Assembly: GCF_001713475.1 (NCBI RefSeq)
Contig: NZ_CP016499.1
Location: 62,001 to 126,000, forward strand
DNA: 64,000 nt
From: Agrobacterium sp. RAC06
GTDB taxonomy: Bacteria; Pseudomonadota; Alphaproteobacteria; Rhizobiales; Rhizobiaceae
Direction: 5' to 3'
This document shows, one piece after another, positions 2,643 through 16,145 of this stretch (position 1 is its first letter; every line of letters starts with the position of its first letter). A program made the position numbers and the translations under genes. Below the pieces are notes generated by a model. That model was not told the origin of the DNA. It saw only the letters and a list, made by a program, of their open reading frames with translations, and did no database searches.

Positions 2643-2673
2643 TTGACAAGCCAAAAGCCGGTGGCACTGTAAA
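2643..2673 (+). promoter_or_regulatory. Sigma70-type promoter of the lacI-led catabolic locus
   Basis: A consensus -35 TTGACA at 2643-2648 is followed, at 17-19 bp, by ACTGTA/TGTAAA (2666-2673) as -10. The predicted start region runs directly into the tandem operators, which suits repression by steric block. Confidence 0.55.
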
Positions 2674-2707
2674 TCGGTTTAGTAAAGCGTTTTACTAAAG
2701 CGGTTTA
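2670..2707 (+). promoter_or_regulatory. Three tandem LacI-family operators, 13-bp period
   Basis: TAAATCGGTTTA (2670-2681), TAAAGCGTTTTA (2683-2694) and TAAAGCGGTTTA (2696-2707) all match TAAA-N-CG-N-TTTA, a palindrome with the central CpG typical of LacI/PurR-family operators. The three copies are separated by one base and repeat every 13 bp. A larger palindrome, TTTAGTAAA-N4-TTTACTAAA, spans 2678-2699. They lie 30-67 bp before the LacI start codon, so autorepression is likely. Confidence 0.75.
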
Positions 2708-2736
2708 CCTGATCGGCGATAGGGGTGTTGAACGGG

Positions 2737-3759
2737 ATGGCAAGGACTGGAGCGACAAGCCTGAAGGACGTGGCGGAAGCCGCCGGCGTTTCGGTGGCCA
2801 CAGTCTCCCGCTTGCTCAACGGTACGCTCCAACTGCCGCCAGAGACCAGAGAGCGGATCGAAACTGCGATCCGCGACTTGCGCTACGAGCCCAATCCCCA
2901 TGCGCGCCGCCTCAGCCGCGGTCGCTCCGATACAATCGGTCTCGTCGTTCCAGATATCGCCAACCCATTCTTCGCAACGCTTGTTGCTGCAGTGGAGCAG
3001 GAGGCCGACAAGCGTGGGCTGTCGCTGTCGCTGCATGTCACCCTCAATCGTCCAGGGCGCGAGATTTCCTATGTGACTGCGCTTGCCCGCAATCATGTCG
3101 ACGGACTGATCTTTGTGACCAATCACCCCGACGATGGCGTTCTGGCCGGTCTGATCAATCAGACTGGCAAAGTCGTGATCGTCGATGAAGACGTGCCCGA
3201 TGCTGTTGTTCCGAAGCTCTTCTGTGACAACGAGGAAGGCGGATATCTGGCAGGGCGCCACCTTGCGGAGCATGGTCATCGGCGAATTGTCTATATCGGC
3301 GGTCCGCAGGACATGATCAGCACCCGCCGTCGTTACAGGGGGTTGGAGAGGGCGCTGCTTGAGACAGGTATGCCCTTCGACGTGACCCGCTACGAAGGCA
3401 GTTTCTCCGTCGAGTTCGGCCGCGAGGCAGCTAGGCGCTTCATCGAAGAAGGAATGCCGGCAACGGCAATCTTTGCCAGCTCCGACGAGATCGCGATCGG
3501 ACTGGTTGAGGTCTTGCGAGCTCAGGGCGTCTCCATCCCGGATGAGATCTCGGTGATCGGCTTCGACGATGTCGGGCCTCTCCATCTCTTTTCACCATCG
3601 CTCACTGCAATACGCCAGCCTGTCAGGGCGCTGGGCGAGCGGGCGCTGGCGCTACTTCTCGAAACAAATTGGCAGAACTCGGACAGCCTGGCTTCCGAAG
3701 AATTGCTGCCTGTCGAAATCGTCGTGCGGCATTCCGTTGCACCGCCGGCGAAACAATAA
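2737..3759 (+). CDS. LacI-family transcriptional regulator
   Basis: About 340 residues. The N-terminal helix-turn-helix reads 'SLKDVAEAAGVSVATVSRLLNG', followed by the hinge region and a periplasmic-binding-protein-like sensor domain beginning 'IGLVVPDIANPFFATL' and ending with 'ISVIGFDDVGPLHLFSPSLTAIRQP'. I prefer the ATG at 2737 because LacI proteins start a few residues before this helix; GTG 2725 and TTG 2728 are possible. It lies 35 bp before the ABC binding-protein gene on the same strand and is preceded by three tandem operators, so it probably represses itself and the catabolic operon. The inducer should be the transported substrate or a product. Confidence 0.92.
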   Translation: MARTGATSLKDVAEAAGVSVATVSRLLNGTLQLPPETRERIETAIRDLRYEPNPHARRLSRGRSDTIGLVVPDIANPFFATLVAAVEQEADKRGLSLSLHVTLNRPGREISYVTALARNHVDGLIFVTNHPDDGVLAGLINQTGKVVIVDEDVPDAVVPKLFCDNEEGGYLAGRHLAEHGHRRIVYIGGPQDMISTRRRYRGLERALLETGMPFDVTRYEGSFSVEFGREAARRFIEEGMPATAIFASSDEIAIGLVEVLRAQGVSIPDEISVIGFDDVGPLHLFSPSLTAIRQPVRALGERALALLLETNWQNSDSLASEELLPVEIVVRHSVAPPAKQ

Positions 3760-3794
3760 AGCAACGAAGCTGAACCGAACCAGAGGATAAGAAC

Positions 3795-4745
3795 ATGACA
3801 CATCTTACACGCAGAACAGTGACTGCCGCACTTGCGGCAACGGCATTTGCCAGCATCTCATTCGGCTCCATCGCTCATTCGGCCGAAAAAACCTTCGCAC
3901 TGATTCAAATTAACCAGCAGGCTTTGTTCTTCAACCAGATGAATGAGGGCGCGCAAAAGGCGGCCGAGGCCGCCGGCGCGAAATTGGTGATCTTCAACGC
4001 CAACAACGACCCGGCGGCACAAAACAGTGCCATCGAGACCTACATCCAGCAGAAGGTCGACGGTCTTGCCGTCGTCGCAATTGACGTGAACGGGATCATG
4101 CCTGCCGTCCAGCAAGCGGCCGCCGCCGGAATTCCGGTGGTTGCCATCGATGCTATCCTGCCAGAAGGGCCGCAAATGGCGCAGATCGGTGTCGATAACG
4201 CCAAGGCCGGTGCCGATATGGGCGCATTCTTCGTCGATTATGTGAAGAACAGCATGGGCGGCTCCGTGAAGTACGGCGTCGTTGGTGCCTTGAACTCTGC
4301 CATCCAGAATGTCCGCCAGGAAGGTTTCGAGACCGCGGTGAAGGCTGCCGAAGGTGTGACCACCGCTGGCGTCGTCGACGGTCAGAACGTCCAGGACACT
4401 GCGCTCGCCGCAGCCGAGAACCTCATCACCGCCAACCCGGATATGACGGCCGTCTATGCGACTGGCGAACCCGCATTGATGGGTGCCATTGCTGCCGTGG
4501 AGAGCCAGGGCAAGCAGGCTGACGTCAAGGTCTTTGGCTGGGATCTGACCGCCCAGGCCATCGCCGGCATCGATGCTGGTTACGTGACCGCAGTCATTCA
4601 GCAGGATCCTGCAGCCATGGGTGCGGCAGCCGTGGATGCGCTGAAGACAATCTCGGATGGTGGTACGGTGGAGAAGACGATTTCGGTCCCGATCACCATC
4701 GTCACCAAAGAGAACTTCGAACCCTACCGGGCCGTCTTCAAATGA
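3795..4745 (+). CDS. Ribose/sugar-type ABC transporter substrate-binding protein
   Basis: A 316-residue periplasmic protein of the RbsB class. The N-terminus carries a twin-arginine-like 'TRRTVTAALAATAFA' signal that should be cleaved near AHSAE. The mature part shows the type-1 fold pattern: 'FFNQMNEGAQKAAEAAGAKLVIFNANNDPAAQNSAIETYI', 'VDGLAVVAIDVNG' and 'GIPVVAIDA'. It overlaps the ATPase start by four bases (ATGA), showing translational coupling. RbsB-class proteins bind pentoses, nucleosides, autoinducer-2 or polyols; the unusual downstream enzymes suggest a ribosyl- or heterocycle-containing ligand, which is inference. Confidence 0.9.
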   Translation: MTHLTRRTVTAALAATAFASISFGSIAHSAEKTFALIQINQQALFFNQMNEGAQKAAEAAGAKLVIFNANNDPAAQNSAIETYIQQKVDGLAVVAIDVNGIMPAVQQAAAAGIPVVAIDAILPEGPQMAQIGVDNAKAGADMGAFFVDYVKNSMGGSVKYGVVGALNSAIQNVRQEGFETAVKAAEGVTTAGVVDGQNVQDTALAAAENLITANPDMTAVYATGEPALMGAIAAVESQGKQADVKVFGWDLTAQAIAGIDAGYVTAVIQQDPAAMGAAAVDALKTISDGGTVEKTISVPITIVTKENFEPYRAVFK

Positions 4746-5560
4746 TCTCTGACAGACAGCACCCAACCGCTGTCGCAGGGTCGGGGGGAGGAGAAATCCT
4801 CCCCCATCGATCCGGCGAAAGCGCTATTCGCCAGCCCCGTATTTCACTACAGGGCATCCGCAAGAATTTCGGATCGCATCAGGCTCTGCGCGGCGTCGAT
4901 CTCGATATCTATCCCGGTGAATGTTTAGGCCTGGTCGGTGACAATGCAGCGGGCAAATCGACCCTGACCAAGGTGATTTCCGGGACCTATATCCCGGATG
5001 ACGGCACGATCACTGTCGACGGCCAAAAAGTTCAATTCAGTGGGCCCGCCGATGCGCGCGATCGAAACATCGAGATGGTGTTTCAAGACCTTAGCCTTTG
5101 CGATCATGTCGATGTTGTCGGTAACCTCTTCCTCGGACGAGAACTGACCAAGGGTCTGTTCCTTGATCGGACTCGCATGATGACCGAGGCGCGTGCAATG
5201 CTGGACGCGCTCGAAATCCGGATCCCGCGGCTCAGCGCAAAGGTCGAGAAACTCTCAGGCGGTCAACGCCAGGCCATTGCAATCGCGCGCGCTGCGTCCT
5301 TCAATCCCAAGGTCCTGATCATGGACGAGCCGACCTCGGCTCTGGCCGTGGCTGAGGTCGAGGCCGTGCTCAATCTCATCAACCGGGTCAAGGCAAAGGG
5401 TGTGTCCGTCATTTTGATCACGCACCGTTTGCAGGATCTTTTCCGGGTCTGTGACCGGATCGCCGTCATGTATGAAGGCACCAAGGTTGCTGAACGCAAC
5501 ATCGCCAACACGGACCTCCAGGACCTCGTGCAACTGATCGTCGGAGGGCAGAGACATTGA
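4742..5560 (+). CDS. Sugar-type ABC transporter ATP-binding protein (single domain)
   Basis: 272 residues with one nucleotide-binding domain, unlike the double-domain RbsA. Walker A is GDNAAGKST (about residue 65), the Q-loop reads 'VFQDLSLCD', the signature is LSGGQRQ, Walker B is VLIMDEP and the switch is ITHR. The 'NAAGK' variant is common in fructose-type (FrcA-like) rhizobial ATPases, which are also single-domain. About 30 residues precede the first beta strand. It overlaps the binding-protein stop by four bases and the permease by four, so the three import genes form a tight unit. Confidence 0.92.
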   Translation: MISDRQHPTAVAGSGGGEILPHRSGESAIRQPRISLQGIRKNFGSHQALRGVDLDIYPGECLGLVGDNAAGKSTLTKVISGTYIPDDGTITVDGQKVQFSGPADARDRNIEMVFQDLSLCDHVDVVGNLFLGRELTKGLFLDRTRMMTEARAMLDALEIRIPRLSAKVEKLSGGQRQAIAIARAASFNPKVLIMDEPTSALAVAEVEAVLNLINRVKAKGVSVILITHRLQDLFRVCDRIAVMYEGTKVAERNIANTDLQDLVQLIVGGQRH

Positions 5561-6558
5561 CCACCTATACTGAACGCGCGTCTGGATCGCCGATTGCAGA
5601 CTTCGTGTCTGAACATGCACAGGTGATGTCCATCGCCGTCTTCTTCGTCGCCTGCCTCGTCTTCTTTTCGGCCATGACCGATACCTTCCTGACGTTCGGC
5701 AACATTTTGAATGTCCTCCGTCAGGCAGCGCCGATCCTGATCGTTGCAGTTGCCATGACGCTGGTGATCATCACCGGTGGCATCGATCTTTCCGTCGGCT
5801 CGCAGGTGGCACTCGTCAATGCGGTTGCCGCAATCCTGCTTGCCATGGGCTACCCGTGGCCGTTGGTTTTGGCCGGCATGGTCGCCTTCGGAGCACTGCT
5901 CGGCATCGCGCAGGGCTGGTTCATTGCCTATCAGGGCATCCCGGCCTTCATCGTGACACTGGCCGGTCTCTCTATTCTCAGGGGCTTTGCCCTCTGGCTG
6001 ACACAGGGGTATTCGATCCCTATCAAAGACGTGCCGGGCTTTTTCTGGCTTGGTCGTGGCGAGCTTTTCAGCATCCCTGTACCCGCACTGATCGCGGTGC
6101 TGGTCGCGGTGATCGGGTATGTGATCATCGCTTACACCAAATATGGTCGGCAAGTGGTCGCTGTCGGCTCCAATCTCGAGGCGGCACGGCGTGTCGGCAT
6201 GCCGGCGAAATGGATCGTTGCCTCCGTCTACATGGTCTCTGGTATCGCTTGCGCCCTGGCGGGGCTTTTGATCGCCGCACGGCTTGGCTCAGGTTCATCC
6301 AATGCTGCGGTGGGGTTCGAACTACAGGTGATCGCTGCTGTGGTTCTGGGGGGCACATCCTTGATGGGTGGGCGCGGGAGCATCCTGGGAACGGTTCTGG
6401 GCACGTTGACCATCGCCGTCATAGGGAACGGCTTGATCCTGATGCATATATCGCCGTTCTTCACGCAGATCGTCACAGGCGCCATCATTCTCGTGGCCAT
6501 CTGGCTCAACACCAAGATCTTCACAACCAATTTTCGCTTCGGCGCAAAAGCGAGGTGA
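5557..6558 (+). CDS. Ribose-type ABC transporter permease (RbsC/FrcC class)
   Basis: 333 residues with eight to ten hydrophobic segments. The family motif 'LVIITGGIDLSVGS' follows the second membrane helix, and 'AARRVGMPAKWIVASVYMVSGIACALAGLL' is the conserved loop that contacts the ATPase. Translation starts at a TTG (5557) that overlaps the ATPase stop, with GGAGGG at normal spacing before it. It forms the membrane channel for the binding protein and ATPase encoded just before it. Confidence 0.92.
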   Translation: MTTYTERASGSPIADFVSEHAQVMSIAVFFVACLVFFSAMTDTFLTFGNILNVLRQAAPILIVAVAMTLVIITGGIDLSVGSQVALVNAVAAILLAMGYPWPLVLAGMVAFGALLGIAQGWFIAYQGIPAFIVTLAGLSILRGFALWLTQGYSIPIKDVPGFFWLGRGELFSIPVPALIAVLVAVIGYVIIAYTKYGRQVVAVGSNLEAARRVGMPAKWIVASVYMVSGIACALAGLLIAARLGSGSSNAAVGFELQVIAAVVLGGTSLMGGRGSILGTVLGTLTIAVIGNGLILMHISPFFTQIVTGAIILVAIWLNTKIFTTNFRFGAKAR

Positions 6559-6563
6559 AGGCA

Positions 6564-7628
6564 ATGAACGAATTATCTGAGGCGCATATCCGCTCGGGCA
6601 ACGTCATGACGGTGGCTGGTGCCATCCCCGCATCCGCGCTCGGTGTCACCCTGATGCACGAGCATATCCTCAATGATTGCCGATGCTGGTGGCACGCCCC
6701 CAAAACGCCGGAACGCCAGTATCTGGCCGACTGCTTTGTCTGCATCGAGATCCTATCTGAACTGCGGCAGGACCCCTTCGTCAACAAACACAACATAACA
6801 CTGGATGACGAGCCTCTGGCGATCGTTGAACTGAAAGACTTCGCCGCCCATGGCGGTCGGACCGTCGTCGAGCCGACATGCCAGGGCATTGGACGAGATC
6901 CCCGAGCGCTGCGACGCATCTCCGAGGCGTCGGGTCTCAACATCGTCATGGGTGCTGGCTACTATCTTGGCTCGTCACATCCGGCCAAGGTGGCCGACAT
7001 GTCGATCGACCAGATCGCCGATGAGATTGTCCATGAGGCGACTGTCGGCGTCGACGGCACCGATATCAAGATCGGGTTGATCGGTGAGATCGGCGTTTCC
7101 TCGGAGTTCACCGCTGAGGAAGAAAAATCACTGCGGGCAGCAGCGCGGGCGCAAAGGCGCACGGGGCTGCCGTTGATGGTGCATCTTCCTGGCTGGTTCC
7201 GCCTTGGGCACAAGGTGCTTGATATCGTCGAAGAGGAGGGGGCAGAGCTCCGTCATACCGTGCTTTGCCACATGAACCCCTCACATGACGATCTTACTTA
7301 CCAGCAGGAGCTCGCGATCCGTGGAGCCTTCCTGGAATACGACATGATCGGCATGGATTTCTTCTATGCCGACCAGCAGGTCCAGTGCCCGAGCGACGAG
7401 GAAGCGGCGCGCGCCATCGTCAAGCTGGTCGAGAGGGGGCTCATCGACCGTATCCTGCTCTCCCACGATGTCTTCGTGAAGATGATGCTGACCCGCTATG
7501 GCGGCAATGGATACGCATACATCCTCAAGCATTTCCTGCCGCGACTGAAGCGTCACGGCCTGAGCGATCGCCAGCTCGAGATCCTCATGCGTGACAATCC
7601 AAGATCGGTCTTCGAGGCGACGGCCTGA
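6564..7628 (+). CDS. Phosphotriesterase-family metal hydrolase
   Basis: 354 residues of the amidohydrolase-superfamily PTE group. 'GVTLMHEHILND' supplies the first HxH metal pair, 'IGLIGEIGVS' offers the bridging carboxylate, histidines follow in 'GLPLMVHLPG' and 'HTVLCHMN', and 'ILLSHDVF' carries the catalytic Asp. PTE-like proteins hydrolyse lactones, phosphoesters or amide rings; native substrates vary widely. The ATG at 6564 is five bases after the permease stop; the frame is open further upstream inside the permease gene but has no matching family sequence there. Probably a ring- or lactone-opening step on the imported compound. Confidence 0.88.
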   Translation: MNELSEAHIRSGNVMTVAGAIPASALGVTLMHEHILNDCRCWWHAPKTPERQYLADCFVCIEILSELRQDPFVNKHNITLDDEPLAIVELKDFAAHGGRTVVEPTCQGIGRDPRALRRISEASGLNIVMGAGYYLGSSHPAKVADMSIDQIADEIVHEATVGVDGTDIKIGLIGEIGVSSEFTAEEEKSLRAAARAQRRTGLPLMVHLPGWFRLGHKVLDIVEEEGAELRHTVLCHMNPSHDDLTYQQELAIRGAFLEYDMIGMDFFYADQQVQCPSDEEAARAIVKLVERGLIDRILLSHDVFVKMMLTRYGGNGYAYILKHFLPRLKRHGLSDRQLEILMRDNPRSVFEATA

Positions 7629-7657
7629 TCGACAGACGACAAACCATGGAAGATAAG

Positions 7658-8428
7658 ATGACAAAAAAAGTTCTACTCGTCGGTGAAAGCTGGGTCAGTT
7701 CGGCCACCCATTACAAGGGTTTTGACCAGTTTGGCAGCGTGACGTTCCATCTCGGCGCAGAGCCGCTGGTCAAAGCGCTTGAGGGCAGTGAGTTTGATCT
7801 GACCTATATGACTGCCCATGATGCCGTGGAGAAATTCCCCTTCGAAATGGAGGGACTGGACGCCTACGACGTGATCATCCTATCGGACATCGGCGCCAAC
7901 TCCTTGTTGCTCCCACCAGCGGTGTGGCTGCATTCCAAGACCGTGCCGAACAGGCTGAAGCTGATCAAGGCATGGGTTGAAAAAGGCGGTGGCCTGTTGA
8001 TGGTCGGCGGCTATTTTTCGTTCCAGGGTATCGACGGCAAGGCCCGTTGGCGTCGGACCCCCGTCGAAGACGTCCTACCGGTGACGTGCCTACCCTATGA
8101 CGATCGTGTCGAGATCCCGGAGGGAACGGGTGCCGTCATCGTCAAGGCCGACCATCCAACGGTGGCGGGTATGGAGGGCGAGTGGCCCGTACTTCTCGGC
8201 GTCAACGAGGTTGAAGTGCGTGACCGTGCCGATGTCGAGGTGATCGCTCGTCTCCCTGAAGAGCAGGGCAGCCATGCTCTGCTGGTCACGGGCAAATTCG
8301 GCAAGGGAAGAAGCGCTGCCTGGACATCTGACATCGGTCCCCACTGGCTGTCGCCCGCATTTTGCGAATGGGAGGGCTATGGCCGACTTTGGAAGAACAT
8401 CCTGGGTTGGCTCAGCGAAAAGGGTTGA
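7658..8428 (+). CDS. Glutamine-amidotransferase-like protein (DUF1355/STM3548 type)
   Basis: About 256 residues. 'KKVLLVGESWVSSATHYKGFDQFGSV' at the start, 'YDVIILSDIGANSLLLPP' and 'WVEKGGGLLMVGGYFSFQGIDG' match the GATase1-like fold of this family, known mainly from structures of uncharacterised enterobacterial proteins. The nucleophilic Cys elbow of true class-I amidotransferases is not evident: the equivalent region reads GLLMVGGYFS. A C-terminal 'GKFGKGRSAAWTSDIGPHW' segment is typical of the family. ATG 7658 is preferred over 7646 because GGAAG lies before it. Its job here is unknown; in other genomes such genes occur with sugar transporters and PfkB kinases. Confidence 0.8.
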   Translation: MTKKVLLVGESWVSSATHYKGFDQFGSVTFHLGAEPLVKALEGSEFDLTYMTAHDAVEKFPFEMEGLDAYDVIILSDIGANSLLLPPAVWLHSKTVPNRLKLIKAWVEKGGGLLMVGGYFSFQGIDGKARWRRTPVEDVLPVTCLPYDDRVEIPEGTGAVIVKADHPTVAGMEGEWPVLLGVNEVEVRDRADVEVIARLPEEQGSHALLVTGKFGKGRSAAWTSDIGPHWLSPAFCEWEGYGRLWKNILGWLSEKG

Positions 8429-8455
8429 GGCAATTGCGGTTCATCCAAGCGGGTC

Positions 8456-9367
8456 TCAACACGCCAGGATGGACCGCATTTCTTCGCTGGTCGGGAAGGC
8501 TGAACGCGTGCCGCGGCGGCTGACGGTCAAAGCCGAAGCTGCTGCCGCATGGCTGATGGCGCGTTTGTCAAGTTCGACGCCGCGCAAGGCTGCCGAAGCC
8601 AGAGCCACGGCCATGAAGGTGTCGCCAGCGCCGGTGGTGTCGATGGCCCTGGCGGAAACAGCCGGGATGGTCGCAATCGGTTCACTTTGGCTTGCCAGCA
8701 GCGCCCCATCCCCCCCAAGCGTCAGCACGACGTGGCGGACGCCCGACTGGAGCAGCCATTCGGTCGCAGCGTCATTTGAAGAACCAGTGAGGCTCTCTGC
8801 TTCGCCCCGGTTCAAGAATGCGATGTCGATCAGTGGCCAGAACGCCCCGAAATACGGCCTGAGCGGCGAGGGGTTGAAGGCGGTGACAAGTTTACGACGG
8901 CGGGCTTCCTGCAGCAGACCAAAGGTGGTCGCCTCGCTGAGGTTGCCCTGCAGGACTAAAAGGTCGCCAGCGGTGGCACCGTCGAGGGCAGCGATGGCTT
9001 CTTCTGGCGCCAATGAGCCTGCTGAATCGGTGGTAGTCACGATGGCGTTTTCGCCGTCCGGGGTTGTGAAGATGATGGAAAAGTCGCTGGAGCGACCGGC
9101 CAAGGTGATGAGCTTGGTCTCGACTGGCTCTAGCGCCAGCTGATTGCGAATGGTCTGGGCGCGGAAATCCTCGCCCACGGCTGAGACCAGGATGGTGGGC
9201 AGACCCGTGCGGCCCATGACCACCGCTTGGTTTGCACCTTTGCCGCCAAGGTCACGCGTTTCTTCGCGACCGAGGATGGAAGCCCCGGCTTCCGGCATGG
9301 TCGAAACGGAAATGGTTTCGTCGACAGCGACGTTACCGATCACATGAGCACGAACACTGACAGGCAT
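8456..9367 (-). CDS. PfkB-family (ribokinase-like) carbohydrate/nucleoside kinase
   Basis: 303 residues. The first PfkB signature appears as 'DLGGKGANQAVV' and the second as 'AIDTTGAGDTFMAVALA', whose GAGD holds the catalytic base and anion hole. Start ATG 9367 follows AAGG and begins 'MPVSVRAHVIGNVAVDET', as usual for ribokinases; an upstream extension would read through the intergenic gap. It is the only gene of this locus on the minus strand: its stop is 27 bp from the previous gene and its start 25 bp from btpA. Likely phosphorylates a sugar or nucleoside released from the imported substrate. Confidence 0.9.
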   Translation of the reverse strand: MPVSVRAHVIGNVAVDETISVSTMPEAGASILGREETRDLGGKGANQAVVMGRTGLPTILVSAVGEDFRAQTIRNQLALEPVETKLITLAGRSSDFSIIFTTPDGENAIVTTTDSAGSLAPEEAIAALDGATAGDLLVLQGNLSEATTFGLLQEARRRKLVTAFNPSPLRPYFGAFWPLIDIAFLNRGEAESLTGSSNDAATEWLLQSGVRHVVLTLGGDGALLASQSEPIATIPAVSARAIDTTGAGDTFMAVALASAALRGVELDKRAISHAAAASALTVSRRGTRSAFPTSEEMRSILAC

Positions 9368-9392
9368 TGCTGGCCTTCGGAAGGAAATGAAA

Positions 9393-10235
9393 ATGCAGAC
9401 GATTTCGGATAACAATTCAAGCGCCATAAGGGAAATATTCGGCACTGACAAGGCGCTGATCGGGATGATCCATTGCGCGCCCTTTCCAGGCGCCCCGCGC
9501 TATCGGGGAACATCAGTCGACGCAATCTACGATGTCGCGATGCGCGATGCTGAAGCCTTGATCGAAGGCGGCCTGCACGGTCTGATCATCGAAAATCACG
9601 GCGATATCCCTTTCTCGAAGCCTGAAGATATCGGACCTGAAACATCCGCCTTCATGTCTGTTGTCGCCGATCGTATCGGCCGTGCAACGGGCGTGCCAAT
9701 GGGGATCAATGTGCTGGCCAACGCGCCGATCCCGGCTTTCGCGATTGCCATGGCCGGTGGGGCGCGCTTCATTCGCGTCAACCAATGGGCAAATGCCTAT
9801 GTGGCGAATGAAGGCTTCATGGAGGGGCGCGCCGCCGAAGCGATGCGTTATCGTTCGGCCTTGCGTGCCGAACATATCAAGGTCTTTGCAGACAGCCACG
9901 TCAAACACGGGGCTCACGCCATTACCGCCGATCGCAGCATCGAGGAATTGACCCGTGACCTCGCTTTCTTTGACGCTGATGTCATCATCGCAACCGGCCA
10001 GCGGACCGGCAATTCTGCGACTGTCGAGGAGATCGAAACCATTGGTGCTGCAACCCATCTGCCTCTTCTGGTCGGATCCGGTGTCACCAAGGACAATATC
10101 CTCGAAATCCTGAAGCGAACAAATGGTGTGATCGTCGCCTCCTCGCTGAAAGAAGGTGGCGTCTGGTGGAACCCGGTCGAACCAGCACGGGTCAAGGCTT
10201 TCGTCGAGGCTGCACGCCCGGGGCTGGAGGCCTGA
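9393..10235 (+). CDS. BtpA/SgcQ-family protein (TIM-barrel)
   Basis: About 280 residues. 'ALIGMIHCAPFPGAPRY', 'EALIEGGLHGLIIENHGDIPF', 'GINVLANAPIPAFAIAMAGGARFIRVNQW', and 'ADVIIATGQRTG' with 'VGSGVTKDNILEIL' match the BtpA family, named for a cyanobacterial photosystem I factor but found in heterotrophs as SgcQ beside sugar genes. The barrel and the late glycine-rich 'VGSGVT' loop suggest phosphosugar binding. ATG 9393 is preferred (AAGGA seven bases before), 9387 is possible. TenA follows after two bases. Role here unknown; a nucleosidase- or isomerase-like step is speculative. Confidence 0.88.
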   Translation: MQTISDNNSSAIREIFGTDKALIGMIHCAPFPGAPRYRGTSVDAIYDVAMRDAEALIEGGLHGLIIENHGDIPFSKPEDIGPETSAFMSVVADRIGRATGVPMGINVLANAPIPAFAIAMAGGARFIRVNQWANAYVANEGFMEGRAAEAMRYRSALRAEHIKVFADSHVKHGAHAITADRSIEELTRDLAFFDADVIIATGQRTGNSATVEEIETIGAATHLPLLVGSGVTKDNILEILKRTNGVIVASSLKEGGVWWNPVEPARVKAFVEAARPGLEA

Positions 10236-10237
10236 TT

Positions 10238-10882
10238 ATGGCAGAGACGCTTTCTGAGCAGATCCTGCGTGAAAACGCTGAAGTCCTCGAAGAGATGCTC
10301 GGGCATCGCTTTGTCGATGACATCAAGGCTGACCGTCTCCCAAAGGACGTGTTCGAGCGCTACCTCGTCTTTGAAGGCGCCTTTGTCGATACCGCGATCT
10401 CTATCTTTGCGTTCGCGACAGCCAAGGCCGAAACAATGGCTCAAAAGCGCTGGCTGGTCGCCGTCCTCGATGCGCTCGCCAATCAGCAGATTGTCTATTT
10501 CGAAAAGACGTTCGCAGCGCGGGGTATCGATCCTCGCGACTTCAACCTCTCGGTGGCAGAGGTGGCGAATTTTCGGGATGGCATGCTTTCGATCGCGCGC
10601 GACGGTGGTTATCTCGATACGGTTGCGGCGATGTTTGCTGCCGAATGGATGTACTGGACATGGTCTAAGCAGGCGGCACAACTTGAGATCAGCGATCCCT
10701 TGCTGAAGGAGTGGGTGGACCTGCATGCCCATCCGGATTTTGCGGCTCAAGCCCTCTGGCTGAAAGCTGAGCTGGATAGAGCAGGGGATGACATGAGTGC
10801 CTCCGAGCGGTCACGTCTGAGTGGCGTTTTCGGTCGGGCCCAGTCGCTCGAGATCGCGTTCCACGACGCACTTTACCTCTGA
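10238..10882 (+). CDS. TenA-family protein lacking all cysteines
   Basis: 214 residues, all helical in composition. 'LPKDVFERYLVFEGAFVDTAISIFAFATAKA' and 'FAAEWMYWTWSKQAA' fit the TenA/thiaminase II fold, the second giving the conserved Glu. No Cys occurs anywhere, so the nucleophile of TenA_C enzymes is absent; it belongs with TenA_E-like proteins. TenA_C hydrolyses aminopyrimidines in thiamine salvage; TenA_E members act on related compounds or are unknown. No other thiamine gene is seen, so a role in the surrounding catabolic pathway is more likely. Confidence 0.85.
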   Translation: MAETLSEQILRENAEVLEEMLGHRFVDDIKADRLPKDVFERYLVFEGAFVDTAISIFAFATAKAETMAQKRWLVAVLDALANQQIVYFEKTFAARGIDPRDFNLSVAEVANFRDGMLSIARDGGYLDTVAAMFAAEWMYWTWSKQAAQLEISDPLLKEWVDLHAHPDFAAQALWLKAELDRAGDDMSASERSRLSGVFGRAQSLEIAFHDALYL

Positions 10883-10893
10883 GGGAACCCGTC

Positions 10894-12153
10894 ATGCTCA
10901 CCATCAACGGCAATCGTCTCAACTCTCGCCTTCAAGCCTTTGCCGCCATTGGTGAAACCGCGAAAGGCGGCGTCAATCGCCAGGCTTTGACGGACGGCGA
11001 CCGAAGCGCCCGGCGAATGCTCGCTGAGCTTGCCTGGGCCCGGGGGTTTCGGGTGTTCCAGGACCCTATGGCCAACCTCTTCGTCTGGCGCAACGGCCGC
11101 GACGAGGCACTTCCTCCTTTGCTGATCGGTAGCCATCTCGACAGCCAACCAGCGGGTGGCCGCTTCGATGGCGCATTGGGCACTCTGTCTGCGTTTGAGG
11201 TCCTGGAAAGTCTGGAAGATGCAGGGACGGCGACCGAGCGCGCCGTTGCCGTGGTATCCTGGACGAACGAGGAGGGATGCCGTTTCTCGCCAGGCTGTAT
11301 GGGATCCATGGCGTTTTTTGAAGGCGCGATCCCGCCCACGTGGCAGGACAAGGTCGCAACGGATGGTGCAGCATTCACAGGAGAGCTGGCTCTCACAATC
11401 GAAAGCCTGCCGGAGGCAGCCATGCTGCCGCTCGGATTTCCGGTTCATGCCTATCTCGAAGTCCATATCGAGCAAGGGCCGTCATTGGAGGCAGCTGGGA
11501 TTCCGATCGGTGTCGTGAAAGGCATCCAGGGAACACGGTGGCTGGATGTGACGGTTACGGGCCAGACGGCTCATGCCGGCACGACAGGTCTCGCCTGGCG
11601 TCGCGACCCACTTCGCGCTTTGACCGCTGCGCTGTCGAGCCTCTACGCAGCCGTTATGCCAGGCGATCCGGACGCCCGTTTCACCATTGGTCGGATTTCC
11701 GCAGAGCCAGGGTCGGTCAATGCTATCCCCGAGGAGGTTCGCTGTACGGTCGATATGCGTCATCCCGATCCAGGGCGGCTGGATGAGATCGAGGAGCTTG
11801 TGAAATCGCGGATCGGCCAGGAGGCGGAGCGGCAGGGCTGTAGCGTTCAGATCACACGGTCCTTCGATATGCCCCCTTGTGCATTCTCTCAAACACTATG
11901 TGAAGTGATCGAAGAAGCAGCGACCGCCTGCAAGGTCGAGAGTGTGCGGATGTTATCTGGGGCGTTTCACGATGCGCTGTTTGTCAATCGCGTCGCGCCA
12001 GCCGGGATGATCTTTGTTCCGTGTCGCGATGGGCTTAGCCACAACGAGGCAGAATATGTCGAGCCGTCGGATGTTGTCACCGGCTGCCAGGTGCTGGCGC
12101 AGGCGACACTGGAGTTGGCGCGCGGGGGCGGGATGGCTGTCGTCGATGGTTAG
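10894..12153 (+). CDS. M20-family Zn amidohydrolase (allantoate/N-carbamoyl-amino-acid hydrolase type)
   Basis: 419 residues, normal for the AllC/HyuC/UraC group. Metal ligands are seen in 'LIGSHLDS', 'GGRFDGALG', 'WTNEEGCRFSPGCMGS' and 'LEVHIEQGP', with the late His in 'GLSHNEAEYV'. 'GQTAHAGTTG' is the dimerisation-domain substrate loop. The family removes carbamoyl or formyl groups from N-substituted amino acids, ureidoglycolate precursors or formyl-aminopyrimidine (YlmB in Bacillus). It starts 11 bp after tenA and closes the locus. Confidence 0.92.
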   Translation: MLTINGNRLNSRLQAFAAIGETAKGGVNRQALTDGDRSARRMLAELAWARGFRVFQDPMANLFVWRNGRDEALPPLLIGSHLDSQPAGGRFDGALGTLSAFEVLESLEDAGTATERAVAVVSWTNEEGCRFSPGCMGSMAFFEGAIPPTWQDKVATDGAAFTGELALTIESLPEAAMLPLGFPVHAYLEVHIEQGPSLEAAGIPIGVVKGIQGTRWLDVTVTGQTAHAGTTGLAWRRDPLRALTAALSSLYAAVMPGDPDARFTIGRISAEPGSVNAIPEEVRCTVDMRHPDPGRLDEIEELVKSRIGQEAERQGCSVQITRSFDMPPCAFSQTLCEVIEEAATACKVESVRMLSGAFHDALFVNRVAPAGMIFVPCRDGLSHNEAEYVEPSDVVTGCQVLAQATLELARGGGMAVVDG

Positions 12154-12468: not shown

Positions 12469-13581
12469 ATGTCTTACGATCTCGCCAAATTGCCCATCCC
12501 GAGCCTGCTGCGGCCGATCTCCGAGGCCGCCGTCGCGCTTGCCCGTCTCGATGAGCGCATCGCCCGCTCTCCGGTCGGCGAGGGCTTTCTTGAGCGCTCG
12601 CATTTTCTCGAGGCGCATGCCTCGCTGTGGGTTGATGGAGAACTCGTCCATCTCGAGGACCTTGTCCTGCATGACGCGCTTCGAGACATCCGCGCACCCA
12701 CCCACGAACTCACCATCGCCCGCGACATCCTGAAAACCCGCCGTCGCATCGCCGCCCATCCCCCGGCCTGGGCGCTCTCTGGTCAAGGCCTCGCCTCTCT
12801 CCGCGGGCAGGCGTTGCCTGCAGCATCATCGGGTAACGACGGGAAGGGTTTGCCGGATGGGAATGTTGAGGTCAGCGACACTCGGGCTGGGGTAGCGGAG
12901 GCCGACGGTCTGAGTGATGCGTTTGCCGCGATCGATGCGGTGCTCGCCCGGTCGGAGGCCGCGATCGAAGAGGCGAAGAAGCCGGGGCGCACCAAAAACG
13001 CTACCGAAAAGGATCCATTTGTCTACGATCTCGACTGGGATGAGGACGAGCGGCTGGAGGAGTGGCAAGCCGTCCTTGCCCGGGCCCAGGATCTTCCACC
13101 GGTCTGCCAAGCAATCGTGGCCCTCGGGAACGAGATCGCCGTGCTCCAGCATGCACCCTGGCTCGGTCGACTGCTGGCCGCCTCGGTCCTGCGCGAGGGC
13201 GGCGTTACCACAAGCATCCATCTCGCGGCGATCAATCTCGGGCTGAAAGCCATCCCCGTCGATCGGCGTCGGCATCGTGATCGCGAGACGCGGTTGCTAG
13301 CCATATCACGGGCGCTGACGATTGCCGCCGAGACGGGGCTGAAGGAGCATGACCGGCTGGTGCTGGCGCGGCAGATGATGATGCGCAAACTGGAGGGACG
13401 GCGGACGTCATCCAGGCTGCCGGAGCTTGTTGAGCTTGTCATGGCGCGGCCGCTGATCTCCGCCGGCATGGTGGCAAAGACGCTCGAGGTGACGCCGCAA
13501 GGAGCGCGGCGGATCGTTCAGGAACTCGGTCTTCGCGAGATGACGGGCAGGGGGAGGTTTCGAGCGTGGGGGATCCTGTAG
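12469..13581 (+). CDS. RHE_PE00001-family protein (DUF1612 plus HTH)
   Basis: 370 residues. '[57 protein letters not shown]' is the DUF1612 region, and the C-terminus '[48 protein letters not shown]' reads as a winged helix-turn-helix. The family is found repeatedly on Rhizobium plasmids; its role is not known, though DNA binding is plausible. No strong ribosome site precedes the ATG. The end overlaps the open frame of the decayed chemoreceptor, so recombination has joined the two. Confidence 0.85.
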
Positions 13582-15797: not shown

Positions 15798-16145
15798 ATG
15801 AGCAATGACTTGAAGCTTCGGATATGGACCATGGCGGTCTTCGCCGCACTGGCGATAAGCCTTCTATTCGCCTCTACTGCCTCGCATGCTGGTCCCCAAT
15901 CCTGTTCGACTCATGTCGCTCATGCCCACCAAGCCAGTCACAAGAAAACGGAAGATTTGGCGGCATCAGGTTCGTTGGCCGAGGCATGTTGCGCTAATGA
16001 CTGCATGCTCTGTGTCGCATATTCATCCCTAGTGCTCTACAGCCCGGAAGGGTTCGGGCGTAGACCGATCTACCTTGAACCGCCGTCTCGACTGCATGGC
16101 CAGCTTCCCGTTCCAGGACGTCATCCCCCTCGATCTGCTGCCTGA
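15798..16145 (+). CDS. Small exported Cys/His-containing protein of the copper operon
   Basis: 115 residues. An N-terminal hydrophobic segment ('MAVFAALAISLLFASTASHA') is a signal peptide or anchor. Beyond it lie a His-containing stretch ('CSTHVAHAHQASHKK') and 'EACCANDCMLCVAYSS', four cysteines that could bind copper. I do not recognise a named family. It sits between a CueR-type promoter and the multicopper oxidase, so a periplasmic copper role is plausible. The last 30 residues are Pro/Arg-rich and unstructured. Confidence 0.6.
   Translation: MSNDLKLRIWTMAVFAALAISLLFASTASHAGPQSCSTHVAHAHQASHKKTEDLAASGSLAEACCANDCMLCVAYSSLVLYSPEGFGRRPIYLEPPSRLHGQLPVPGRHPPRSAA

Follow-up and report, generated by a model that had tools for sequence, protein, structure and literature searches.

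We analysed a 64,000-nucleotide stretch of the genome of Agrobacterium sp. RAC06 (contig NZ_CP016499.1, positions 62,001 to 126,000; hereafter the window), which carries between 2725 and 12153 a ten-gene set combining a LacI-type repressor, a ribose-type importer, a PfkB-family kinase and the BtpA and GATase1_like families. The gene list and family calls of an initial annotation, made from the sequence alone, were borne out: every gene was confirmed among the open reading frames (ORFs) of the window and all ten proteins score above the Pfam cut-off for their families. NCBIfam is consistent with the Pfam calls, its equivalog models for the ribose system, ribokinase, AllC and thiaminase II staying below cut-off. 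The operator region and the genes are as follows, in window coordinates.

2669-2708, no strand: three overlapping putative LacI-type operators, 14-bp palindromes (consensus GTAAANCGNTTTAC) at 13-bp spacing, upstream of the LacI gene
2725-3759, plus strand: LacI/RbsR-like repressor (PF00356 and PF13377, LacI/Peripla_BP_3; RbsR model 243 bits, cut-off 382)
3795-4745, plus strand: RbsB-like (CUT2) substrate-binding protein (PF13407, Peripla_BP_4)
4742-5560, plus strand: single-domain ATP-binding cassette (ABC) ATPase, an RbsA half (ABC_tran; NCBIfam)
5557-6558, plus strand: RbsC-like permease (BPD_transp_2; NCBIfam)
6564-7628, plus strand: PTE-family metallohydrolase (PF02126; close to R. sphaeroides 3k2g)
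7646-8428, plus strand: GATase1_like protein of the STM3548/STM1381 type (PF07090, 424 bits; alternative ATG at 7658)
8456-9367, minus strand: PfkB ribokinase-like kinase (PfkB 141.9 bits, cut-off 25.8)
9387-10235, plus strand: BtpA/SgcQ family protein (PF03437, TIGR00259; alternative ATG at 9393)
10238-10882, plus strand: TenA-like protein (TENA_THI-4, 64 bits)
10894-12153, plus strand: M20 hydantoinase/carbamoylase-family (AllC-like) amidohydrolase (Peptidase_M20; TIGR01879)

The ATPase has 272 residues, about half the length of RbsA. The kinase gene lies antisense to the others, between the GATase-like gene and the BtpA gene; its ATG (9367) faces the BtpA start (9387/9393) some 20 bp away and its stop (8456) falls 27 bases past the GATase-like stop, so the ten genes do not form one simple co-directional transcript. 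The single LacI-controlled unit of the initial annotation, which left the antisense kinase unmentioned, stands as a conserved, self-regulated uptake-plus-degradation cluster and not as one run of genes. Elsewhere PfkB is co-directional, following either TenA (for example in L049, L079 and L085; L and G numbers are our labels for loci and genomes) or the GATase-like gene (L113, L116, L118, L125).

The palindromes of the operator start at 2669, 2682 and 2695. At up to two mismatches their pattern matches four times in the window against 0.52 expected, a count reached by no shuffle, and the fourth match (position 16060) lies outside the cluster. At one mismatch or fewer, GTAAAGCGNTTTAC finds two of the three operator sites and nothing else in the 4.96-Mb genome; its reversed control pattern gave 2 and 2 matches. 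We surveyed 74 of the 80 loci described below, those in which the LacI start could be placed, for sites with up to two mismatches no more than 160 bp upstream of LacI. All 74 have at least one site and 71 have at least two, whereas one or more occur in 16 of 1,480 random 170-bp fragments drawn from these loci; in Aureimonas L101-L103 the LacI counted is that of a paralogous second cluster, with a pair carrying three mismatches. The 13-bp-spaced pair was also sought in 34 chosen loci, where it is present in 8 and absent from 26, including the BtpA-bearing L104, L108, L113, L160-L162, L195 and L208 (no pair turned up in 3.2 Mb of shuffled control sequence). The operator is therefore tied to LacI-led rhizobial and Rhodobacter-type clusters and not to every version of the system.

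Conservation and modular variation

Nine GATase-like queries against named genomes returned at least 576 relatives, from which the best 80 loci were kept by GATase-like closeness alone, no other gene being used for the choice; as the closest of at least 576, these loci under-sample distant contexts. The substrate-binding protein, ATPase, permease, PTE, PfkB and BtpA also lie within about 8 kb in 76 of the 80, and the conserved neighbourhood on which the initial annotation had staked its proposal is thus present. The co-occurrence that it proposed to look for, of BtpA, PTE, TenA and M20 beside an RbsB-type importer, is seen for the first two families and in part for the others: LacI occurs in 76 of the 80 loci, TenA in 64 and the AllC-type M20 in 39. 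The 76 full loci divide into 33 with both TenA and the AllC-type M20, 31 with TenA alone, 6 with M20 alone and 6 with neither. Presence was scored by bit-score thresholds (for example 150 for M20 and 100 for TenA) with weaker pieces counted as absent, which affects the M20 count, since M20 pieces are visible in L092, L093 and L097 and M20 is split in L067 and L069. An ArgE-type M20, the second type, occurs in 3 of the 80 loci, and the Rhodobacter-type L094, L098 and L100 have the core set without TenA and M20. Many soil and plant bacteria thus keep the set together; among the genera represented are Rhizobium, Agrobacterium, Ensifer, Mesorhizobium, Phyllobacterium, Roseibium and Martelella, as well as Rhodobacter, Tabrizicola, Aureimonas, Jiella and Granulosicoccus.

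Across a broader sample of 398 Pseudomonadota genomes, 24 had a GATase-like match, which was strong (E ≤ 1e-60) in 16, our own among them; contexts were tallied for all of these 16 but G102. The full core lies in one locus in 7 of them (our own, G229, G236, G331, G364, G430 and G433) and is split over two loci in G306; in G181, G252 and G255 the match position holds the second importer cluster alone, and in G114, G378, G388 and G413 the GATase-like gene stands in other contexts. A match was found in 11 of 60 close relatives, our own genome counted, and the system is therefore patchy.

Several loci show the cluster divided into modules. In G306 one piece (L158) reads substrate-binding protein, ATPase, permease, PTE and GATase-like, the other (L208) LacI, substrate-binding protein, ATPase, permease, TenA, BtpA and PfkB, and the two binding proteins differ at 2 of 11 pocket positions. 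Pantoea-type gammaproteobacteria (L108, L160-L162) have the core with another M20 that reads as ArgE/DapE-like, the L160 copy being Peptidase_M20 by Pfam; L159 has the same M20 with LacI, importer, PTE and GATase-like, and no PfkB, BtpA or TenA within 19 kb. A paralogous second cluster comprises LacI, GATase-like, ATPase, substrate-binding protein and two permeases, with the ArgE-type M20 where the locus is seen far enough. It directly follows the main cluster in four loci, has a copy at 14645-20780 in L028, is found also in L033, L044, L062 and L101-L103, and is free-standing in L209-L211; in L028, L033, L101 and L107, the four cases examined, the pocket of its binding protein differs from that of the main cluster.

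Just upstream of the operator, on the minus strand of the window, the open stretch 2176-2571 has no Pfam match. It shares about 32% identity with pieces found downstream of the second clusters of L101-L103, L107 and L023, and since the L101 and L107 pieces match the ArgE-type M20 query, it appears to be what remains of a decayed M20 gene. In loci of the R. leguminosarum group (L049, L052, L054, L058, L059, L061, L064, L066, L072-L074, near 13230) another gene family follows PfkB in the M20 slot, its L061 copy belonging to the inositol-monophosphatase family. M20 is spread over several frames in L067, L069 and L027, and the GATase-like gene is split in L027, probably through decay or assembly errors. 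As for the flanks of the cluster in the window, an HbpS-like gene (PF03928; 1650-2072, minus strand) lies upstream with nothing to tie it to the operon, and the gene at 12469-13581, 3' of the cluster, is presumably one of the RHE_PE00001 family of rhizobial plasmids.

Residue patterns in the binding protein and the kinase

The binding proteins of the cluster keep part of the ribose pocket and change the rest. We aligned the window protein and the 60 most divergent of 98 qualifying binding proteins (61 rows) to E. coli RbsB. F16, D89, R141, D215 and Q235 are kept in 61/61 rows and F15 in 60/61, while N13 and N190 are replaced in every row (by Ala and Gly, respectively), R90 by Ala in 60/61 and N64 by Val in 53/61; position 164 is ambiguous between two alignments. 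R90, presumably a ribose contact, lies outside the published residue set considered below. The nearest Protein Data Bank (PDB) chain is 5hsg (2.8e-122), which we take to be an apo structure, and the NCBIfam RbsB model gives 111 bits against a cut-off of 337. The ribose-pocket set N64, D89, R141, N190, D215 and Q235, as given in PMC5557919, is thus incomplete in the window protein. Work cited in that paper has ribose binding lost on changes at 89, 190, 215, 16, 64, 164, 214 and 235; its own assay finds no significant effect of changes at 16, 64, 164, 214 and 235, and the authors put the N190A defect down mainly to abundance and doubt a role for N64 and N190 in binding alone. The pattern fits, without proving, a ligand that resembles ribose in its anchored part and needs more room.

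The kinase was treated in the same way, aligning the window protein and the 60 most divergent of 89 qualifying kinases (61 rows). The RbsK ribose contacts are given in PMC9604405 as N14, D16, G42, K43, N46, E143 and D255. Cluster kinases keep D16, G42, K43, N46 and D255, but in 61/61 rows the N14 position is Ala, Thr, Val or Gly and the E143 position is Asn (N170 of the window kinase in the numbering of the longer 331-residue ORF, 8456-9451). The Asn14 equivalent of Arabidopsis ribokinase may be Ala without much loss, according to PMC9604405. With contact residues changed and 189 bits against the NCBIfam ribokinase cut-off of 299.65, the window protein is a PfkB-family kinase whose identity as a D-ribose-specific ribokinase (RbsK) is not supported; the pseudouridine kinase model gives it 39 bits, compared with those 189.

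The residue at position 143 tracks BtpA. Among 104 kinases surveyed in the loci (matches below 70 bits or about 180 residues left out, hence the omission of L164), those within 9 kb of both a GATase-like gene and BtpA have Asn in 97/97 cases, and those near a GATase-like gene without BtpA have Glu in 6/6, three of these being close enteric relatives; a kinase near BtpA only has Ala (n = 1 of 104). The Haloferax kinase has Ala in one alignment and Tyr in another. Asn recurs in the later full clusters L212-L214 and in L208, from a genome in which the GATase-like gene lies elsewhere, and exceptions below or outside the threshold are L164 (Gln, a distant PfkB) and L203 (Glu, a distant PfkB beside a 48% BtpA and without GATase-like). 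In an unrooted tree of kinases thinned to less than 75% identity (n = 49), 39 are of the Asn cluster type and the ten others, including PsuK, fall on one branch (support 0.897), so that the switch from Glu143 to Asn may have happened once. Asn143 of E. coli PsuK aligns with the same position in two alignments, and PMC9247573 describes it as bonding N3 and O4 of the base. On the simplest reading of this pattern, we infer that the BtpA-linked kinase would phosphorylate a riboside with an amide- or imide-like group on its C1 substituent.

BtpA and the accessory enzymes

The window BtpA belongs to the BtpA/SgcQ family (TIGR00259, 226.8 bits, cut-off 153.4; PF03437, 237.5 bits, cut-off 30) and falls below the equivalog for photosystem I biogenesis (NF045918, 206.8 bits, cut-off 400). 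Its predicted structure is a TIM barrel of sugar-phosphate type (predicted local distance difference test score 85.6), with HisF among the fold matches and 2-keto-3-deoxy-6-phosphogalactonate (KDPGal) aldolase among the best. Six loci with BtpAs of other subfamilies were viewed: a sugar kinase lies nearby in four, three of which also have a short-chain dehydrogenase/reductase, L123 has sugar-type genes with no annotated kinase, and the sixth, the E. coli sgc genes, is described below. The initial annotation's statement that neither BtpA nor GATase1_like has an established reaction stands, within the literature searched.

The PTE-family protein matches 3k2g, a chain we take to be Rsp3690, with 593 bits over 352 residues (2e-177). 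H32, H34, E175, H207, H236 and D302 are invariant in 6 aligned members, residues whose role as binuclear metal ligands follows from PMC11374699 and family knowledge. Similarity and metal ligands thus place the protein in the family. It is not of the PTER N-acetyltaurine hydrolase type, since mouse R204, R233 and H300 correspond to G210, P239 and F304 (aligned through chain 9efa and E169). The GATase-like protein falls in PF07090 and has MVGGYFSFQG at the glycine-rich segment; no Cys is invariant among 9 aligned members, where class I glutamine amidotransferases have their catalytic Cys, and an amidotransferase reaction is therefore unlikely.

In what we take to be the numbering of B. subtilis TenA, the catalytic Cys135 is accompanied by D44, Y163 and E205. 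The window protein has A135, E46 and H163 at the first three positions (mapped through 2rd3) and scores 49 bits against a cut-off of 130 for TIGR04306, which sets it apart from thiaminase II (TenA_C). E205 is kept and an invariant E136 stands beside the lost Cys, and this adjoining Glu suggests a TenA_E-like protein. The M20 protein belongs with the hydantoinases/carbamoylases (TIGR01879, 357.5 bits, cut-off 204).

A proposed pathway, its rivals and known systems

Taken together, these data point to an inducible operon, repressed by LacI, for the catabolism of a ribose-configured, C1-substituted compound, nucleoside-like or glycosylamine-like, a reading to which we give a probability of about 0.45. 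The residues of the kinase and the binding protein would allow the nucleoside-like or modified riboside ligand of the initial annotation. What the analysis shows is the gene set with its conservation, the operator, the residue patterns and the predicted fold of BtpA; we infer the ligand class, the order of steps and every reaction. The CUT2 importer with its remodelled ribose pocket would take up the compound, and the PTE-type metallohydrolase and GATase-like protein would hydrolyse an ester, lactone or amide, trimming it before phosphorylation. The ribokinase-like PfkB would then phosphorylate O5 with the C1 substituent still attached, BtpA would cleave or isomerise the phosphorylated conjugate, and the resulting ribose 5-phosphate or ketose phosphate would enter the pentose-phosphate pathway. 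TenA and M20 may have been added in certain lineages, where they would recover nitrogen from the part set free; action on a released nitrogenous part would explain why they come and go.

A narrower and more doubtful proposal concerns BtpA itself, which may open or isomerise a 5-phosphorylated C1-substituted riboside, having co-evolved with a kinase that swapped Glu143 for an Asn holding the base or amide, while a BtpA-free variant (the RikA type, below) would free the sugar before phosphorylation. BtpA would in that case correspond in function to PsuG, or to TrpF/HisA working in the catabolic direction. If true, this would be the first reaction for a family that occurs in cyanobacteria, enterics and archaea, and it would establish a new catabolic route for ribosides, of which a second variant lacks BtpA. 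BtpA and GATase1_like both occur widely, and the present operon, compact and regulated, brings them together with a kinase whose specificity residue tracks BtpA, which makes their function directly testable. The operon as a whole, if correctly read, would be a route for root-associated bacteria to use ribose conjugates and would hint at the role of BtpA elsewhere, including in photosynthetic bacteria.

The main rival is that the substrates are sugar-amino conjugates, Amadori or opine-like compounds such as glycated amino acids or amines. Their amide or lactone bonds would be cut by PTE, M20 or other peptidases, the kinase would act on the sugar and BtpA would serve as deglycase or Amadori isomerase. 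We consider this unlikely, if the least so of the alternatives. It draws on plasmid pTiA47a, where a GATase-like homolog (L110, 9013-9777) lies near hydantoinase A/B, an SIS protein, a fructoselysine 6-kinase and an ABC importer; on L055 and L077 (with BtpA), where GATase-like and PfkB genes stand beside importers that read as dipeptide type; on L163 (7498-13585), where a GATase-like gene, a PfkB with the ribokinase Glu, an M20, an M24/creatinase-like gene (weak, below cut-off) and, by reading, a dipeptide-type importer occur together; on the E. coli sgc genes, with BtpA alongside an M42 peptidase, a phosphotransferase system and an Rpe-like enzyme; and on HisF among the BtpA folds and the two M20 subfamilies that adjoin cluster genes. 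However, the pTi homolog is only 36% identical and its neighbouring kinase lacks the cluster signature, the AllC-type M20 is missing from 37 of the 76 full loci at the threshold used, and the main cluster has an importer of CUT2 type. A catabolic system for a sugar lactone or an acylated sugar, with PTE as lactonase or esterase, the kinase acting on the opened acid or the sugar and BtpA as aldolase, seems distinctly less probable. The PTE relatives Rsp3690 (R. sphaeroides) and Pmi1525 are metal-stimulated esterases as cited in PMC5341072, Monoglobus groups a ribokinase, LacI and GATase-like protein with an annotated acyl-homoserine lactone (AHL) lactonase and RbsBAC-type genes, and the KDPGal aldolase fold would suit this chemistry; yet it does not by itself explain the kinase Asn or the nitrogen-type accessory enzymes, and the phospho-furanose lactonase model scores 67 bits against a cut-off of 630.

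Redundant scavenging of ribose or allose, with another ribokinase and the remaining genes as passengers, would accord with growth on ribose supported by the enteric relative RikA (PMC13432705) and with L193, a Chloroflexota plasmid on which an allose operon holds the GATase-like gene together with RpiB and two genes of the ribulose-phosphate-epimerase family. We regard it as very improbable, because the binding-protein pocket and kinase site differ from RbsB and RbsK in nearly all aligned orthologs and the RikA authors themselves suggest that ribose may be off-target. Least probable of all is salvage of the thiamine pyrimidine or another aminopyrimidine centred on TenA and M20, the chemistry favoured by the initial annotation. 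Although both families are present in the window, as in the 33 full loci counted above, one or both are missing from 43 of 76; moreover, the TenA-like Cys is lost with the D44 and Y163 positions changed, and by Pfam none of the ten proteins falls in a thiamine-synthesis family or is a hydroxymethylpyrimidine kinase. On present evidence the cluster is not a thiamine salvage system.

Parts of the cluster have published counterparts. The mammalian PTER shares the PTE subfamily and metal ligands with the cluster PTE, and PMC11374699 names 3K2G as its top PDB match, but three substrate residues are changed. The trio of PfkB kinase, GATase-like protein and PTE-family enzyme is already published as an orphan locus, Salmonella STM3547-STM3550 (STM3547, STM3548 and STM3550; PMC13432705, 2026), where it occurs with a DMT transporter instead of the CUT2 importer; its kinase RikA phosphorylates ribose, and the authors regard the locus as a possible pathway for an unidentified substrate. 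The same three families occur in plasmid records of E. coli and E. albertii and in one Proteus record; the E. albertii plasmid repeats the Salmonella arrangement, with no BtpA annotated within 6 kb of the locus. Unlike the cluster kinase, the rikA-type kinase keeps the ribokinase residues N14, A98 and E143, and the PTE of the rikA locus is 38% identical to that of the cluster. We found no paper describing the BtpA-containing version in the literature searched.

The E. coli rbs operon has in common with the cluster a LacI-type regulator, an RbsB/A/C-type importer and a kinase of ribokinase fold; the cluster differs in the altered pockets of binding protein and kinase, the half-length ATPase, four extra enzyme families with accessory TenA and M20, and ribose-system NCBIfam scores below cut-off. 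Amadori catabolism (frl, soc and chrysopine-type genes) likewise joins import and amide or lactone handling to a PfkB kinase, with the GATase-like homolog nearby on pTiA47a, and the Amadori compound deoxyfructosyl-glutamine is present in tumours of the chrysopine type (PMC4231840); the cluster, by contrast, has no SIS deglycase among its ten genes by Pfam, a different kinase site and a CUT2 importer. No PsuG homolog was found among the ten proteins (Pfam, E 0.001), which sets the cluster apart from pseudouridine degradation, and the BtpA of the cluster is a predicted TIM barrel. The likeness to PsuK/PsuG lies in the Asn at the base-contact position of PsuK and, should the C1-substituted riboside reading hold, in the order of events: a kinase, then an enzyme acting on the phosphorylated product.

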